Assembly (NCBI GenBank): GCA_014860745.1
Contig: JACZJC010000056.1
Span: forward strand, 1 to 64,000
DNA: 64,000 bases
From: Anaerolineales bacterium
GTDB lineage: Bacteria; Chloroflexota; Anaerolineae; Anaerolineales; Villigracilaceae
Direction: 5' to 3'
Positions 57,873 to 63,308 of this stretch are shown here, in pieces. Every line of letters starts with the position of its first letter. Positions within the stretch are counted from its first letter, which is position 1. Position numbers and translations under genes: made by a program. The notes beneath the pieces are model-generated. The model saw only the letters and a list, made by a program, of their open reading frames with translations. It did no database searches and was not told the origin of the DNA.

Positions 57873-57975
57873 CGTTCAATTATCCATCGGTTCGGTGGTC
57901 GCGGCATTTGCCGCGGCGTTGGGTCGTGTAGCATCCCATCGAAAAGTGCCGCCGTCCAGAAAGAAGGCACCACCA

Positions 57976-58848
57976 ATGAACCTTTGGCAAAATTACATTC
58001 GCCCCAAAACCTTATCCGAAGCCATGGACGCGTTTGCCCACGCGCCGCGTCCGCTTATACCAATTGCAGGGGGGACCGATCTGTTGCTCGACCTTGAACA
58101 AGGCCGTCATTCACCCGTCCAGACTTTAATTGATGTGACATCCATTGCAGAGATGACTCTTCTCGAATTGAGAGGGGATGAACTCTTCATCGGCGCTTCG
58201 GTCCCGGTCAACCGCATCGCTCTCGACCCGCTGGCTGTTCGCCACGCCCAGGCATTGACCGAAGCCTGTAATTTGATCGCCGGGCCGCAAGTCCGCAATG
58301 TGGCCACTCTCGGCGGCAACGTGGCCCATGCCCTCCCCGCAGCAGACGGAACAATTGCCCTGCTCGCGCTCCATGCACAGGCAGAGATTTCGAGTGCATT
58401 GGGAACCCGCCGAATCTCATTTAAAGAATTGTTCCTCGGCCCCGGTAAGTCTGCACTCAAACACGGCGAAGAACTTATTGTCGGCTTTTACCTGCCGCGT
58501 TCCACAAAACATCAAGCATCCTGCTTCAAACGAATCATGCGTCCGCAGGGCGTTGCGCTTCCCATTTTGAATTGCGCCGTCTGGCTCGAACGTAAAACAG
58601 CGGCCATCAAGGATATTCGCATCGCGATCGGTCCCGGCGGCGGGACTCCCTTCCGCGCATCTCAAGCCGAAGATACCTTGCGTGGACAACCCCTCAACGA
58701 AACGATATTTGAATCCGCACTCGAAGCCCTGCTGGCCCAGGCCCAATTCCGCACCAGCCCTCGCCGAGCCAGCTCGGATTATCGCCAGCATATTGTTGTT
58801 GGTTTATTCAAAGATGTGGTTGAAACTGCATGGAGGAGAGCACAGTGA
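57976..58848 (+). CDS. xanthine dehydrogenase FAD-binding subunit
   Basis: 290 residues. PCMH-type FAD-binding domain: PIAGGTDLLLDLE near 29-41, IGASVPVNRI and QVRNVATLGGNVAHALPAADGTIALLAL near 103-130, the latter lining the flavin. The C-terminal CO_deh_flav_C domain follows (FKRIMRPQGVALPILNCAVWLE). It passes electrons from the Fe-S clusters of the large subunit to NAD+ or another acceptor. Comparable to YgfM of E. coli. ATG 57976; its TGA overlaps the start of the inserted GIY-YIG gene. Confidence 0.9.
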   Translation: MNLWQNYIRPKTLSEAMDAFAHAPRPLIPIAGGTDLLLDLEQGRHSPVQTLIDVTSIAEMTLLELRGDELFIGASVPVNRIALDPLAVRHAQALTEACNLIAGPQVRNVATLGGNVAHALPAADGTIALLALHAQAEISSALGTRRISFKELFLGPGKSALKHGEELIVGFYLPRSTKHQASCFKRIMRPQGVALPILNCAVWLERKTAAIKDIRIAIGPGGGTPFRASQAEDTLRGQPLNETIFESALEALLAQAQFRTSPRRASSDYRQHIVVGLFKDVVETAWRRAQ

Positions 58849-59693
58849 TGAATGAATCATCTGATTATTACGTTTACGTTTATATTGACCCTCGAAACTA
58901 TGAAGAGTTTTATTATGGTGAGGGGAGGATGAACAGAAAGGATTCGCATCTCGGTGACAAGAAAGAATCAAGAAAAACTGCGCGTATAAATAAAATTCAC
59001 AAGGCTGGGCTTAAACCAATTGTTAGAGTTATAGCGAAAAACTTAACACAGCGTGAAGCGCTTTTAGTTGAGAAAACTTTAATCTGGAAACTTGGGCGAA
59101 ATCTGACAAATGAATCCACCGGTCATTTTGTTGATAATTTTCGTTCTCATGACGATCTGTATAGGGAGCTATATGGTTTTGATTATCAGAATGGCATCTA
59201 TTATTTCAATGTTAATGAACACAATGGAGGAAGTTGGGTAGATTGTAAAAAATATGGTTTTCTATCCGCATGGGGAAGTAAAATTTTTGGCGAGCAAATT
59301 CAATCTTTCCATGAAGGTGATGTGGTTATGGCGTATTTGAGCCGTAAAGGTTATGTTGGCGTAGGTGTAATAACTGAACGGGCAGTAATGGCAAAAAAAT
59401 TCATGGTTAACGGTAAAAAATTAAGCGAATTAGATTTAGTTTCCAAACGTGTTATGGAACAAAATGCTGATGATACTGAAAAGTCTGCATATCTTGTTAA
59501 AGTTGCATGGAAAGCAACCTGTGATGCTCATGAAGCAAAGTGGATAAAAAGCAAGAAACTTTTTACGTCTCAAATGGCAAAAGCGTCATTACAAAACCAG
59601 AGAGAAACTATAGATTTCGTTTCGTCTGCCTTTAAAATTAATATAGAGAACCTCTTGAAGAAAGATAAAGTAATACAGGTGAATCAAAAATGA
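58848..59693 (+). CDS. GIY-YIG/PUA-like fusion protein inserted in the xdh operon
   Basis: 281 residues. Residues about 6-100 resemble a GIY-YIG nuclease of the LEM-3-like kind: YYVYVYIDPRN..EFYYGEG near the start, a basic KTARINKIHKAG, and VEKTLIWKLGRNLTN near 78-92 with the Glu expected to bind metal. About 110-215 resembles an EVE/PUA-type domain (GGSWVDCKKYGFLSAWGS, then FHEGDVVMAYLSRKGYVGVGVI), a fold that reads modified bases. The rest is Lys-rich. Two counted 60-base lines contain 19 G+C each, against far more in the flanking genes, so it is probably acquired. GGAGGAGA lies before ATG 58848, and both ends overlap the neighbouring xdh genes. A nuclease acting on modified DNA or RNA is an inference. 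Confidence 0.75.
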   Translation: MNESSDYYVYVYIDPRNYEEFYYGEGRMNRKDSHLGDKKESRKTARINKIHKAGLKPIVRVIAKNLTQREALLVEKTLIWKLGRNLTNESTGHFVDNFRSHDDLYRELYGFDYQNGIYYFNVNEHNGGSWVDCKKYGFLSAWGSKIFGEQIQSFHEGDVVMAYLSRKGYVGVGVITERAVMAKKFMVNGKKLSELDLVSKRVMEQNADDTEKSAYLVKVAWKATCDAHEAKWIKSKKLFTSQMAKASLQNQRETIDFVSSAFKINIENLLKKDKVIQVNQK

Positions 59694-62494
59694 ATAACAA
59701 CATTTCCCTTATTGTAAATGAACAATCTTATACTCTTGAATCCATCCCGGGTGAAACACTCTCAACCCTACTCCGTGAAAGACTGCGCCTCACAGGGACA
59801 AAGATCGGCTGCGAAGAAGCCGAGTGTGGCGCGTGTACCGTCCTTGTGGATGGTGAGCCTGTGGTCTCGTGCATCTATCCCGCCGAACGCGCGGATGGGA
59901 AAAGCATCCTCACCATCGAAGGATTGGCGGAACACGTGCATGAAGAGATGAAATTACATCCCCTTCAGGAAGCATTCGTGGAGCATGGCGCGGTCCAATG
60001 CGGATTCTGCATCCCCGGGCAAATCATGACGGCGTATGCGTTGCTAAATCGCAATCCGAACCCAACGAGTGATGATGTCCGATTTGCGCTGAAGGATACG
60101 CTATGCCGTTGTGCGGGCTACCCGACCATTGAGAATGCGATTCTTGCGGCGGCGGAATCTTTGAGAACGGGCGAGCCCATCAAGAAGCCACACATCCCTG
60201 ATTCGATTCACGAACATAAATCAGTCGGGCATACGCACACCCGCCACGATGGCATGGAGAAAGTCGTTGGCACAGCCGTCTTCACCGACGACCTTGTCTT
60301 CGATGGAATGTTATATGCCAAAGCCCGACGAGCGATGATTCCGCATGGCTTCTTGACCAAGCTCGATATTTCGAAAGCCAGGGCATTACCCGGAGTTGTG
60401 GCCGTTTTAACTGCCGAAGATATTCCCGGCGAAAAAACTCACGGACTGGTCACCTTTGATTGGCCTGTGATGGTCGGCATTGGCGAACGCGTCCGCTACG
60501 TGGGGGATGCGATCGCGATCGTAGCGGCGGAAACGCAACAGATTGCCGATCAGGCATCGGCGTTGATCGAAGCGGAGTTCGACCTCCAGCCCGTCATCAC
60601 GAATCCCGTGCAGGCGCGTCAGGAGGGAGTCCCGCAAATTCACGAAAAAGGAAATTTGCTCAAACACATCAAGGTCCGCAAGGGCGATATGGAAAAAGGT
60701 TTCGCCGAGTCGGATATCATCCTTGAACACACATTTCACACGCAGACAACTGATCATGCGTTCCTTGAACCTGAATGCAGTATTGGTGTGCCGCTGGCGG
60801 ATGGGCGCATGGAAATTTATTGCGGTTCGCAAATCCCGTATCAGGACCGTGAGCAGGTGGCGCGGGTGATGGGTTGGGATCAATCGCGGGTTCGCATCGT
60901 GGGGCAGTTGATGGGCGGCGGTTTCGGCGGCAAGGAAGATGTGATGGGGCAGATCCATGTGGCGATGCTGGCGGACGTGACGAAGCGACCCGTGAAGTTG
61001 CTGTTCGACAGGCACGAAAGTCTGCTTGTGCATCCGAAGCGGCATGCCACGCAAATTCGAGTCAAGATCGGCGCGAAGAAAGATGGGCGACTCGTGGCAT
61101 CCGAGACCGAACTCTATGGCGATACCGGCGCGTACGCATCGCTCGGTGAAAAGGTGATGACCCGCGCCACCACGCACTCGGCGGGTCCGTATGATATCGA
61201 ACATGTGCGTGCTGATTGTTACGCCATGTACACCAACAATCCGCCCGCGGGCGCGTTCCGCGGATTCGGCGTCACGCAATCGGCGTTTGCGGTCGAGTCG
61301 ATGATGGATATGCTTGCCGAAAAATTGAATATTGAACCTGTTGAACTGCGCCGCATGAATGCCTTGCATGTTGGAAGCATTACGAACACAGGACAGGAAT
61401 TACGCGAGTCGGTGGGACTGATGGAATGCATTGATAAGGTTTCAAGTGCCATGCGTCAGGTATCAGGTTTGTCGCAGGATGAGTTATTCAAGCCGCACGC
61501 CGCACCTGACACGCCACAACTGGTACGCTCTTGGGGTTTTGCCTCCGCATACAAGAACACAGGACTCGGCGGCGGCGCGCCTGATAAATCTGGCGCGGAT
61601 GTTGAACTTTACGCAGATGGCACCTTCCAGGTGCGAAGTTCCTCCGCCGAGATGGGGCAGGGACTTGTCACGGTCATGCGTCTGGTTGTTGCGGAGGAAA
61701 TGTCGGTGCCGCCCGAACAGGTTAAAGTTTTGGTGATGGATACCGACCTGGCGCCAAATGGTGGACCCACGACGGCTTCGCGTCAAACCTACGTGACAGG
61801 TAATGCGTCACGATATGCGGCGAAGACTTTGCGCGATGAGATCACGGCGACGATGGCCGAGAAATTCGACGTGCGCCCCGAGCAGATACGATTCGAGAAC
61901 GGCATTGTCCATGTCAACGGACATTCGCTGACGTATGCTGAAATCTACAAAGAAATGACCACCCTCGGAAAGCACCCGCGTGTCCGTTATGAGTACGAAG
62001 CGCCGAAGACTCAACCGCTCGGCACAGGCGGCGATATGCATTTCGCCTTTTCATTTGGCGTGCAGGCCGCCGAAGTGGAAGTTAACAAACTGACGGGTGA
62101 AGTACGCGTGCTGAAAGTCATTTCCGCCAATGACGTGGGCATGGCGGTCAATCCGCTTGGCTTGCAGGGACAGGTGGAAGGCGGCGTGATGATGGGACTT
62201 GGCCACGCCCTCACCGAAGAATTCATCGTGGAGAACGGTTACGTGGTCACCGATCATCTTGCCCGTTATCGTGTCCCTGGCATTATGCTGACGCCTGAGA
62301 TTACATCCATTATCGTTGAGCATGCCACCGCGGAAGGCCCTTACGGCGCGAAGGGGGTGGGCGAGATTTGCAGTATTCCCACCACGCCCGCGATTACGAA
62401 CGCGATTTATAACGCGGTGGGTGTGAGGATCGATAGAACCCCTGTCGATCAGGAATTGATCGCAAGGGAGATTTGGGAGAGGGAAGAGAAATAA
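59690..62494 (+). CDS. xanthine dehydrogenase, fused 2Fe-2S and molybdopterin subunit (XdhD-like)
   Basis: 934 residues. Residues 1-160 hold two [2Fe-2S] sites: Cys41, 46, 49 and 61, then Cys104, 107, 139 and 141. The molybdenum part runs from about 185: MGGGFGGKED near 404-413, AFRGFGVTQ near 523, GQGLVTVMRLVVAEE near 660, and the catalytic Glu in EGPYGAKGVGE near 890. The fused order and the length are close to XdhD of E. coli (956), which is encoded beside a YgfM FAD subunit. It would oxidise hypoxanthine or xanthine at molybdenum. Start ATG 59690 overlaps the stop of the inserted gene. Confidence 0.92.
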   Translation: MNNNISLIVNEQSYTLESIPGETLSTLLRERLRLTGTKIGCEEAECGACTVLVDGEPVVSCIYPAERADGKSILTIEGLAEHVHEEMKLHPLQEAFVEHGAVQCGFCIPGQIMTAYALLNRNPNPTSDDVRFALKDTLCRCAGYPTIENAILAAAESLRTGEPIKKPHIPDSIHEHKSVGHTHTRHDGMEKVVGTAVFTDDLVFDGMLYAKARRAMIPHGFLTKLDISKARALPGVVAVLTAEDIPGEKTHGLVTFDWPVMVGIGERVRYVGDAIAIVAAETQQIADQASALIEAEFDLQPVITNPVQARQEGVPQIHEKGNLLKHIKVRKGDMEKGFAESDIILEHTFHTQTTDHAFLEPECSIGVPLADGRMEIYCGSQIPYQDREQVARVMGWDQSRVRIVGQLMGGGFGGKEDVMGQIHVAMLADVTKRPVKLLFDRHESLLVHPKRHATQIRVKIGAKKDGRLVASETELYGDTGAYASLGEKVMTRATTHSAGPYDIEHVRADCYAMYTNNPPAGAFRGFGVTQSAFAVESMMDMLAEKLNIEPVELRRMNALHVGSITNTGQELRESVGLMECIDKVSSAMRQVSGLSQDELFKPHAAPDTPQLVRSWGFASAYKNTGLGGGAPDKSGADVELYADGTFQVRSSSAEMGQGLVTVMRLVVAEEMSVPPEQVKVLVMDTDLAPNGGPTTASRQTYVTGNASRYAAKTLRDEITATMAEKFDVRPEQIRFENGIVHVNGHSLTYAEIYKEMTTLGKHPRVRYEYEAPKTQPLGTGGDMHFAFSFGVQAAEVEVNKLTGEVRVLKVISANDVGMAVNPLGLQGQVEGGVMMGLGHALTEEFIVENGYVVTDHLARYRVPGIMLTPEITSIIVEHATAEGPYGAKGVGEICSIPTTPAITNAIYNAVGVRIDRTPVDQELIAREIWEREEK

Positions 62495-62498
62495 ACAA

Positions 62499-63308
62499 CT
62501 AATGGAAAAGAGAATGTCTAAATATTTCTTTTGCCACAACCTTGAATTCAGTGTCAGACTTTTGCATCTGATATAAGCGCGCTGGCGAATCAACGAGGAT
62601 TTCTGTTAAAGTATTTTTATCCGCATCTTTCATTTTGCAACCGAAGTAGATGCCAGTTAAAGCGGCTTTGTCAAATGGGTATGCTTGGTTTCCGTTTGAC
62701 AGGAATATCCGCCATTCTTTTTCGTAACACCACTGGAATGATTTTGTTCCTAACTGAGTTTCAACCAAAGACGGCAAATTGTGGGGTATATCCTTAAGGC
62801 TTAGAGACGGATATGAATTTGTTTCGGGATAATTGACTCTAAGTAAAGTTTTTCTTTTAACGGGTTTAAATGGTGGGAAACTTGTATCAAACTCCAAACA
62901 AAATCCTTGATGTCCGTTGGCATAGTGTGACCACATAAGTATGTTGTCGCTTTCTTCAGAAAAGCATGCTATTCCTAATCGCTTCCACTTATTTTCCTTG
63001 ACTGTGTTAGTTGCTCTCCGTGCAAATAAAACAACACCTTCTCTGAACCTGTCATTGATTTGACCTCCTTGAGTATAAGTTGAATCAAAAGCATTTTTAT
63101 CTGGTACTGATTCCCGAAGAGTATCAAATAGAGATCTCATATTTTGTTCTGTAACTTCTGTAATTGCAAAGTTTATATCGGAATCGAAGGGGTCGTTGAA
63201 ATTTTCGGGTTTCGAGAACCATAATTGCCTTTGCTGTAAATTGTTGAAAGCATAAGGCTCACAGGATTGGTATTTGTACAATTTTGAAGGGACTATCGTA
63301 TCTAGCAT
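62499..63308 (-). CDS. DUF2971 domain protein
   Basis: 269 residues. DUF2971 landmarks: LYKYQSC near residue 10, the segment LWFSKPENFNDPFDSDI near 29-45, ACFSEESDNILMWSHYANGHQGFCLEFD near 113-140, and YEKEWRIFLSN near 195. Function unknown; members are scattered in accessory regions and have been suspected in phage-related or toxin roles. One counted 60-base line contains 20 G+C, much lower than the xdh genes, so it is likely acquired. GAGGAG lies before the ATG. It converges with the xdh gene, five bases apart. Confidence 0.85.
   Translation of the reverse strand: MLDTIVPSKLYKYQSCEPYAFNNLQQRQLWFSKPENFNDPFDSDINFAITEVTEQNMRSLFDTLRESVPDKNAFDSTYTQGGQINDRFREGVVLFARRATNTVKENKWKRLGIACFSEESDNILMWSHYANGHQGFCLEFDTSFPPFKPVKRKTLLRVNYPETNSYPSLSLKDIPHNLPSLVETQLGTKSFQWCYEKEWRIFLSNGNQAYPFDKAALTGIYFGCKMKDADKNTLTEILVDSPARLYQMQKSDTEFKVVAKEIFRHSLFH

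Follow-up and report, generated by a model that had tools for sequence, protein, structure and literature searches.

What place does a predicted nuclease have between two genes of purine oxidation? The question is raised by a stretch of 64,000 nucleotides from an Anaerolineales bacterium of the family Villigracilaceae (positions 1 to 64,000 of contig JACZJC010000056.1, assembly GCA_014860745.1), which we call the window. Here a xanthine-dehydrogenase-like (xdh) operon houses a GIY-YIG/EVE gene, the insert, between the gene for the flavin adenine dinucleotide (FAD)-binding subunit and the gene for the 2Fe-2S/molybdopterin fusion subunit (Mo). A sequence-only reading had described the gene as fitted seamlessly into the operon, and the layout is as it said. 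The FAD stop codon (TGA, 58846–58848) shares a base with the insert start codon (ATG, 58848–58850) in a TGATG at 58846–58850, and the Mo start codon (ATG, 59690–59692) overlaps the insert stop codon (TGA, 59691–59693) in an ATGA at 59690–59693. The hexamer ATGAAT stands at both joints (58848–58853 and 59690–59695), and the G+C content falls sharply, to 0.36–0.38 in the insert vs about 0.53–0.60 on either side. The same reading saw no obvious role for the protein here unless in defence or mobility. That remains the best reading of the gene; the idea of an insertion peculiar to the GIY gene is not supported, as the junction hosts many unrelated genes. The surprise is the site more than the gene: the FAD–Mo junction is a turnover hotspot inside a metabolic operon.

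The hotspot is seen in the gaps between neighbouring genes. The Mo gene was matched in 57 relatives from the family, and 41 of these had usable context, short contigs, matches of lower identity and a broken gene being skipped; 40 were counted, since genome G035 (locus L093) has no FAD gene at the locus. Among the 40, the FAD–Mo gap runs from 7 to 1192 bp and exceeds 400 bp in 13. Elsewhere in the cluster, at 15 further junction types each seen at least five times, gaps of more than 400 bp occur in 3 of 254 cases. The ck–bmp1 gap (2.1–2.5 kb in six of six) was excluded, being constant and large enough to hold a gene; a perm2b–bmp2 gap of 1823 and a negative abc2–FAD value are effects of paralogue matching or stop finding. 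When nine more relatives from the family are added, the FAD–Mo gap exceeds 400 bp in 14 of 49. A search of the literature on intra-operon insertion hotspots found nothing about the FAD–Mo junction by title or abstract start.

The occupants of the junction are diverse. By a domain scan of one protein per kind, they comprise a PD-(D/E)XK protein (PF13366, which we take to be the GxxExxY type) in seven genomes (G001, G005, G016, G023, G044, G049 and G086), the GIY/EVE protein in three (G000, which is the window genome, G045 and G085), Fic (G052), Phd plus PIN (G058), LysE (G019), a membrane protein with a weak BNR match (G051) and a 297-residue protein without a Pfam match (G017). The PD-(D/E)XK copy of G016 carries a stop, and the start of the G051 gene overlaps the FAD stop in a TAATG, as judged by eye. 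The remaining junctions of the family are spacers of 7–182 bp, many with palindrome-like repeats. At order level, the junction of genome G148 contains an insert of 661 bp in which a short frame looks antitoxin-like by eye.

Not every occupant need be a new arrival. The junction PD-(D/E)XK proteins of G005, G023 and G016 share 83, 79 and 68% identity with the G001 protein, and the other copies in 61 genomes share at most 59%; therefore, the junction copies look like one old occupant, not repeated fresh landings. The gene has the form of a single-gene element (loci L018, L022, L044, L045, L050, L060 and L062) that begins at or just behind the FAD stop codon and has inverted repeats like CCACTGAGACACGGAGACACAGAGA at its ends. 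The repeat CCACNGAGNCACNGAGACAC has 1–11 matches per genome in eight genomes, and its reversed control has 0–1. By eye, remnant-like ends lie near the Fic, LysE, Phd–PIN and unknown inserts and near the GIY copy of G045; insertion through the GxxExxY-type element was considered but not adopted. Also by eye, the stretch behind the Phd–PIN insert of G058 (L023) looks like what is left of a FAD 3′ end, as though the insert had brought a second FAD tail with it.

How the contents change was followed on a tree of the FAD and Mo genes (40 rows, the window and 39 relatives, G005 being left out for its short Mo match). The presence or absence of an insert requires 11 changes on this tree, vs a mean of 11.2 in shuffled data; that is, insert presence is without phylogenetic signal. 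The class of junctions with a short gap requires eight changes on the full tree, seven when the tree is built from the last 250 bases of FAD and two when it is built from the first 250 bases of Mo, although the first Mo bases belong to the definition of the class, so that class and Mo tree are not fully independent. The class thus follows the local Mo haplotype, an indication of recombination at the FAD–Mo junction. Along loci L078 to L118 there are two Mo 5′ haplotypes, an MSNIN type with the short gap and an MNNQI type with longer gaps. It is tempting to go further and to see the junction as an intra-operon socket in which single genes are exchanged between species as alternative alleles, perhaps through recombination in the flanking xdh genes, with some occupants adapted for translational coupling. 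Such recombination fits the short-gap class and is a proposal for the GIY gene; we regard the socket as a tentative and rather unlikely generalization.

The GIY gene itself is rare. Rather than standing at this site throughout the family, it was found in three of 152 family genomes, G000, G045 and G085 (E up to 1e-20), and in all three it sits directly between the FAD and Mo genes. A sample of 396 genomes of the class gave one further genome with a relative, G336, whose coordinates fit locus L166. The arrangement is no assembly artefact; the G045 and G085 records (JAUQXA010000010.1 and JAKOVF010000383.1) show it as well. The sister copies are likewise AT-rich, with G+C of 0.38 and 0.39 between flanks of 0.58 and 0.56.

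The 3′ joints of the three copies are alike. G000 and G045 have the ATGA overlap, and in G085 the insert stops 2 bp before the Mo ATG. All three proteins run past a common ..LLK into short, similar tails (KDKVIQVNQK in the window, KEEVVKVNQS and KEQVIGE), and a motif like a ribosome-binding site lies 6–7 bases ahead of the Mo ATG, AGGTGA in G000 and G085 and AAGGTAA in G045; it is the probable ribosome-binding site of the Mo gene. Among the printed rows (every second row) of a 46-row alignment of the wider family, described below, no tail of the xdh type was seen. Most other printed rows end within about five residues of the point where the tail starts, and L160, L162 and L164 extend further with a sequence unlike it.

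The 5′ joints differ: TGATG in G000, a spacer of 27 bp in G045 and one of 22 bp in G085. The G085 spacer contains CGAGGAAA, resembling the sequence ahead of the Mo ATG in other relatives, which suggests that the gene entered between a CGAGGAAA-like site and the Mo ATG. A target-site duplication was considered for the repeated hexamer and rejected, as the letters shared by insert start and Mo start are ATGAAT in the window, ATGA in G045 and ATGAC in G085 (6, 4 and 5 bp), and the 5′ joints are unlike. Nor is there support for the supposition, drawn from the window, that removal of one ATGAAT and the insert would give back a native junction. In 38 relatives from the family without the GIY gene, the FAD–Mo junction is a spacer of 7–182 bp in 27, counting as far as the base aligned to the Mo start of the window, and holds another gene in 11; a direct TGATG occurs in none, nor in nine further relatives from the family. 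At order level, the two genes overlap or touch, by eye, in L072 (ATGA) and L077 (TAATG), and an ATG lies 1–9 bases behind the FAD stop in L063, L066, L067 and L069.

What kind of protein is it? A scan with two peptide patterns through one genome of each of 84,980 species, which yields part of the family, gave 50 loci, and 49 of these match almost the whole query. The 46-row alignment comprises the window and these loci less L128, L129, L138, L141 and L168, omitted for in-frame stops (two in L129), for a missing start under the chosen coordinates or as a fragment; the stops of L128 and L138 arise from coordinates that run beyond the true stop. Against Pfam, the insert protein matches GIY-YIG only (PF22945, LEM-3_GIY-YIG, 6.3e-9, residues 21–111); PADLOC adds PD-T4-3 (1.5e-9, residues 4–92) and the candidate family PDC-S11 (4.2e-31, residues 115–264). 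An AlphaFold2 model built from the 46 rows (mean predicted local distance difference test score 82.9, predicted template modelling score 0.63) bears out the two folds that had been claimed from sequence. Compared with the PDB, residues 3–98 are nearest to CMoRE, the PD-T4-3 protein (9u75_A, Z 10.0, root-mean-square deviation (rmsd) 2.7 over 86 residues, 35% identity by VIA-align). Residues 115–263 form an EVE/YTH domain of the PUA superfamily, with matches to 1wmm (PH1033; Z 11.5, rmsd 2.8, 119 residues), VcaM4I (6yex_B; Z 10.7) and the YTH domains of YTHDC1 and YTHDF2 (Z 9.0–9.7), the EVE/YTH-type matches overall having Z 9.0–11.5 across 112–135 residues. The alignment is invariant at YVYVY (8–12), Y22, G24, G26, R30, E75 and N88 and nearly so at Y23, so that the GIYxY-YIG motif is present as YVYVY and YYG (22–24). 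R30 and E75 are the presumed catalytic residues. From fold and relatives, the insert protein is probably a solo type IV, that is, modification-dependent, restriction enzyme.

Taken whole, we hold the following explanation to be moderately probable. A type IV nuclease, with an EVE domain that would recognize a modified base of incoming DNA and a GIY-YIG domain that would then make the cut, was captured into the FAD–Mo hotspot and fitted by its tail to the Mo gene. Its ancestor would have come from a widely transferred family, some of whose members stand in integron-like arrays, and would have entered ahead of the Mo start codon, behind the ribosome-binding site of that gene, in one Chloroflexota family, with one capture probably accounting for all three of the known xdh copies. 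By its tail, the insert would give Mo both a ribosome-binding site and a stop–start overlap, and it would be expressed as part of the purine operon. As the content of the junction turns over, the GIY gene would be one alternative, kept in three lineages and elsewhere lost or never gained.

Several results weigh against this explanation: a trace of descent in the junction contents, the age of the gene in G045 and G085, the results of the integron searches and the state of the window copy. When the occupants are sorted into five content classes, 18 changes are needed vs a shuffled mean of 21.1, and 16 of 300 shuffles are equally low, so the classes carry a weak phylogenetic signal. Between G045 and G085 the synonymous divergence (dS) of the GIY gene is 1.06 vs 1.4–2.3 in six neighbour genes. 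Any exchange between these two is therefore old, dS giving no support to a recent transfer, and a value so little below that of the neighbours makes old vertical descent with many losses possible. It may be, then, that a single ancestral insertion was inherited vertically and lost or overwritten many times, with no transfer between lineages. The common tail and 3′ joint suit this view, as does a dS near that of the flanking genes. In favour of the main explanation, the carriers are far apart in the FAD and Mo tree and a single carrier clade is rejected (approximately unbiased test, p 1e-45), yet the three GIY genes form one clade in a quick tree of their own (support of 98 in the Shimodaira–Hasegawa-like approximate likelihood-ratio test, with L166, from Anaerolineae, next at 99). 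Vertical descent must accommodate three carriers in 152 genomes, and lineages between the carriers that have a short joint and another Mo 5′ haplotype. In addition, the branch sum over the flanking genes is smaller for G085–G000 (0.34) than for G085–G045 (0.49), yet the GIY gene of G085 is far nearer that of G045, a closeness partly explained by a fast window branch. We think descent without transfer doubtful.

The scattered carriers invite another thought, that a freestanding homing-type GIY-YIG gene cuts an empty FAD–Mo junction and copies itself in. All three family copies lie at one junction in separated lineages, with the presence/absence pattern that homing would leave. In alignment columns 1–100 of the Mo gene, eight of the ten sites separating G045 from its sisters G049 and G009 match G085, which hints at a short co-converted tract, although ten sites are few and the non-carrier G083 matches six of them. 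One phage match of the GIY-YIG part is annotated as a putative homing nuclease; to our knowledge, EVE/YTH is not a homing DNA-binding module. The wider flanks of the carriers follow each carrier's own lineage, and relatives elsewhere sit in other places, some in integron-like arrays. Homing of the GIY gene is possible but leaves the unrelated occupants, which are numerous, unexplained, and we consider it quite improbable.

Where might the captured gene have come from? Relatives at 44–64% identity are found in Bacteroidota, Pseudomonadota, Patescibacteria-type bacteria, Nitrospirota, Verrucomicrobiota, Actinomycetota and others. Part of the family, though not demonstrably all of it, travels in integrons. 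The copy in L137 (Rhodanobacter) lies, by eye, within a series of attC-like repeats at cassette spacing. Direct repeats of 125–167 bp flank the gene in L122, L127 and L129, and a shorter one in L137 (4 of 50 places vs 8 of 294 control positions scoring at threshold or above). Of 47 relatives, 8 have attC-like cores flanking the gene on either side, vs 3.5% of 2817 control positions. Integron integrase (IntI, TIGR02249) is above cut-off in 33 of 61 genomes, the window genome not being one of these, and IntI is present in G045 and G085. At the relatives' loci the IntI search gave only a C-terminal IntI-like fragment in L135 (7199–7381), behind the GIY/EVE relative of Robertkochia. A phage origin of the full-length gene was rejected, six phage records matching the GIY-YIG part only. 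A plasmid origin was set aside too, as one of 45 plasmid records covers at least 80% of the query, a Lichenihabitans plasmid in which the gene adjoins an IS3 transposase gene.

The stricter searches are less kind to this origin. Paired attC-like cores occur in 3 of 47 relatives vs 2.4% of controls. A strict attC scan gave none downstream and one upstream among 49 loci, its search window starting too late for cores that overlap the stop codon; a second strict scan gave 3 and 3 of 49 vs 24 and 27 of 1470 controls. The window genome, a draft 98% complete, has no intact IntI, only a 43-residue match below cut-off (G000:C53). The window copy has neither a downstream attC-like core nor a core pair; it has one upstream R′-like core, as have 18% of control positions. 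Although relatives lie in integron-like arrays and IntI is common among them, the idea that an integron integrase put the gene directly into the xdh operon, using a secondary site there, is disfavoured because attC is missing: in none of the three copies is the insert followed by a complete attC-like pair, its stop overlapping the Mo start or preceding it by 2 bp. Other occupants, moreover, have unlike ends, such as the CCACNGAGNCACNGAGACAC inverted repeat. Of the routes considered, we rate this one as highly improbable.

Finally, the window copy itself calls for comment. Of 89 positions with at least 90% conservation among the other 45 rows, it differs at 9, and neither G045 nor G085 differs at any. 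The departures include K25E, next to the YIG motif, and, within the EVE domain, G142W (all 45 others have K and G, respectively), and the window branch of the GIY tree is 0.55 vs 0.055 and 0.075 in the siblings. The window copy may thus be decaying or re-specialising, and it may no longer be working. Should it be a degenerate passenger, which landed in a tolerant spacer and is now functionless, one would have to reconcile that with an intact reading frame, with R30 and E75 retained and with a ratio of nonsynonymous to synonymous divergence of about 0.09–0.11 against the siblings (dS being saturated). The departures alone are not proof of lost function, because four other rows (L160, L161, L163 and L164) depart at 8 or 9 positions. 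We therefore judge a mere passenger to be unlikely, and we keep to capture of a probable restriction gene into a hotspot as the explanation.

The features of the locus are collected in Table 1. The FAD reading frame is already open from a GTG at 57895, and the ATG at 57976 was taken as the start; that of the insert is also open from an ATG at 58830, and 58848 was picked through the alignment with relatives.

Table 1. Features of the xdh locus around the insert, in window positions.
Feature	Position	Strand	Basis or remark
xdh FAD-binding subunit	57976..58848	+	Pfam FAD_binding_5 8.3e-40, CO_deh_flav_C 9.1e-21; start used is ATG 57976
GGAGGAG, probable ribosome-binding site of the insert within the FAD gene end	58832..58838	+	Reading of the sequence; putative
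GIY-YIG/EVE gene, 281 aa	58848..59693	+	Overlaps FAD stop (TGATG) and Mo start (ATGA)
GIY-YIG nuclease domain, CMoRE/PD-T4-3 type, aa 3–98	58854..59141	+	Structure match, PADLOC, invariant residues
EVE/YTH-fold (PUA superfamily) domain, aa 115–263	59190..59636	+	Structure matches, PADLOC PDC-S11
Ten-residue C-terminal tail KDKVIQVNQK	59661..59690	+	Alignments and translations
AGGTGA, probable Mo-gene ribosome-binding site inside the insert tail	59677..59682	+	Reading of the sequence; putative
xdh 2Fe-2S/molybdopterin fusion subunit (Mo)	59690..62494	+	Pfam Fer2, Fer2_2, Ald_Xan_dh_C, MoCoBD_1, MoCoBD_2

Upstream of the xdh genes, two nucleoside-type ATP-binding cassette transporter gene sets and other purine-related genes can be read. 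Right behind the Mo gene lies a second AT-rich gene (62499–63308, minus strand), which encodes a DUF2971 protein (Pfam 1.1e-8) with a strong match to the candidate defence family PDC-S31 (6.8e-62). No copy was placed in the 41 context loci, and some of these stop shortly after the Mo gene; among 60 other genomes, 2 have a homologue elsewhere.

Searches for defence genes tend to look at islands, prophages and integrons, and phage defence genes in integrons have recently been reported. In the present case the host is a conserved metabolic operon, in which a probable restriction nuclease and a number of other single genes take up one junction and only rarely those around it. Should the pattern hold generally, neighbourhood-based searches would overlook part of the defence repertoire. 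The junction is also a natural case of an operon that gains and drops genes without breaking downstream translation. Were it truly a socket, the metabolic operon would lend purine-linked expression to rotating defence genes.

The comparison with known systems places the gene, if not its site, in familiar company. Integron gene cassettes resemble it in that some of its relatives stand in cassette-like arrays, whereas attC is missing from the window copy and an intact IntI from its genome. An Aeromonas integron also contains a cassette with a GIY-YIG domain, a likeness at the level of description (PMC10609294). PDC-S11 matches residues 115–264 of the insert with its C-terminal positions 206–356 of 358, and its N-terminal part has no match to the insert. 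A 359-residue protein of G111 (L004, 901–1980) has the EVE-like C-terminal part in common with the insert protein; its N-terminal part appears NucS/DUF91-like by eye, and a Priestia plasmid match carries a DUF91 annotation. The modification-dependent restriction enzyme VcaM4I (PDB 6yex) joins an EVE-type reader to a nuclease, as the insert does. We take VcaM4I to be an EVE–HNH enzyme, so that its nuclease is of the HNH kind and its domain order unlike that of the insert, the match spanning chain residues 1–161.

Two comparisons are closer. The insert is a member of an already known kind of protein, because fusions of EVE and GIY-YIG domains have been published as predicted type IV restriction enzymes (PMC7641849). 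Both domains are shared with those fusions; the available part of that paper does not mention the xdh operon site, and the word "integron" is absent from its main text. CMoRE (PD-T4-3), as described in the available part of its report, is a single-gene GIY-YIG endonuclease specific for 5-hydroxymethylcytosine (5hmC) and its glucosylated form (5ghmC), with a GIYxY-YIG motif (PMC12923530). A negatively charged autoinhibitory loop is a further mark of CMoRE. Like CMoRE, the insert is a single gene with an N-terminal GIY-YIG domain that has the extra tyrosine (YVYVY) and with a C-terminal reader domain. It differs in that the PD-T4-3 profile (PDLC04031) covers positions 13–108 of 256 only, short of a whole-protein match, and in that its C-terminal part is EVE/YTH, whereas the same part of the CMoRE report gives no homologue for the CMoRE sensing domain. 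Whole-chain superposition of the insert model on 9u7u gives an rmsd of 13.6, and the C-terminal half resembles EVE/YTH folds. With a nuclease domain like that of 5hmC-specific CMoRE joined to an EVE reader, base specificity offers a direct test.

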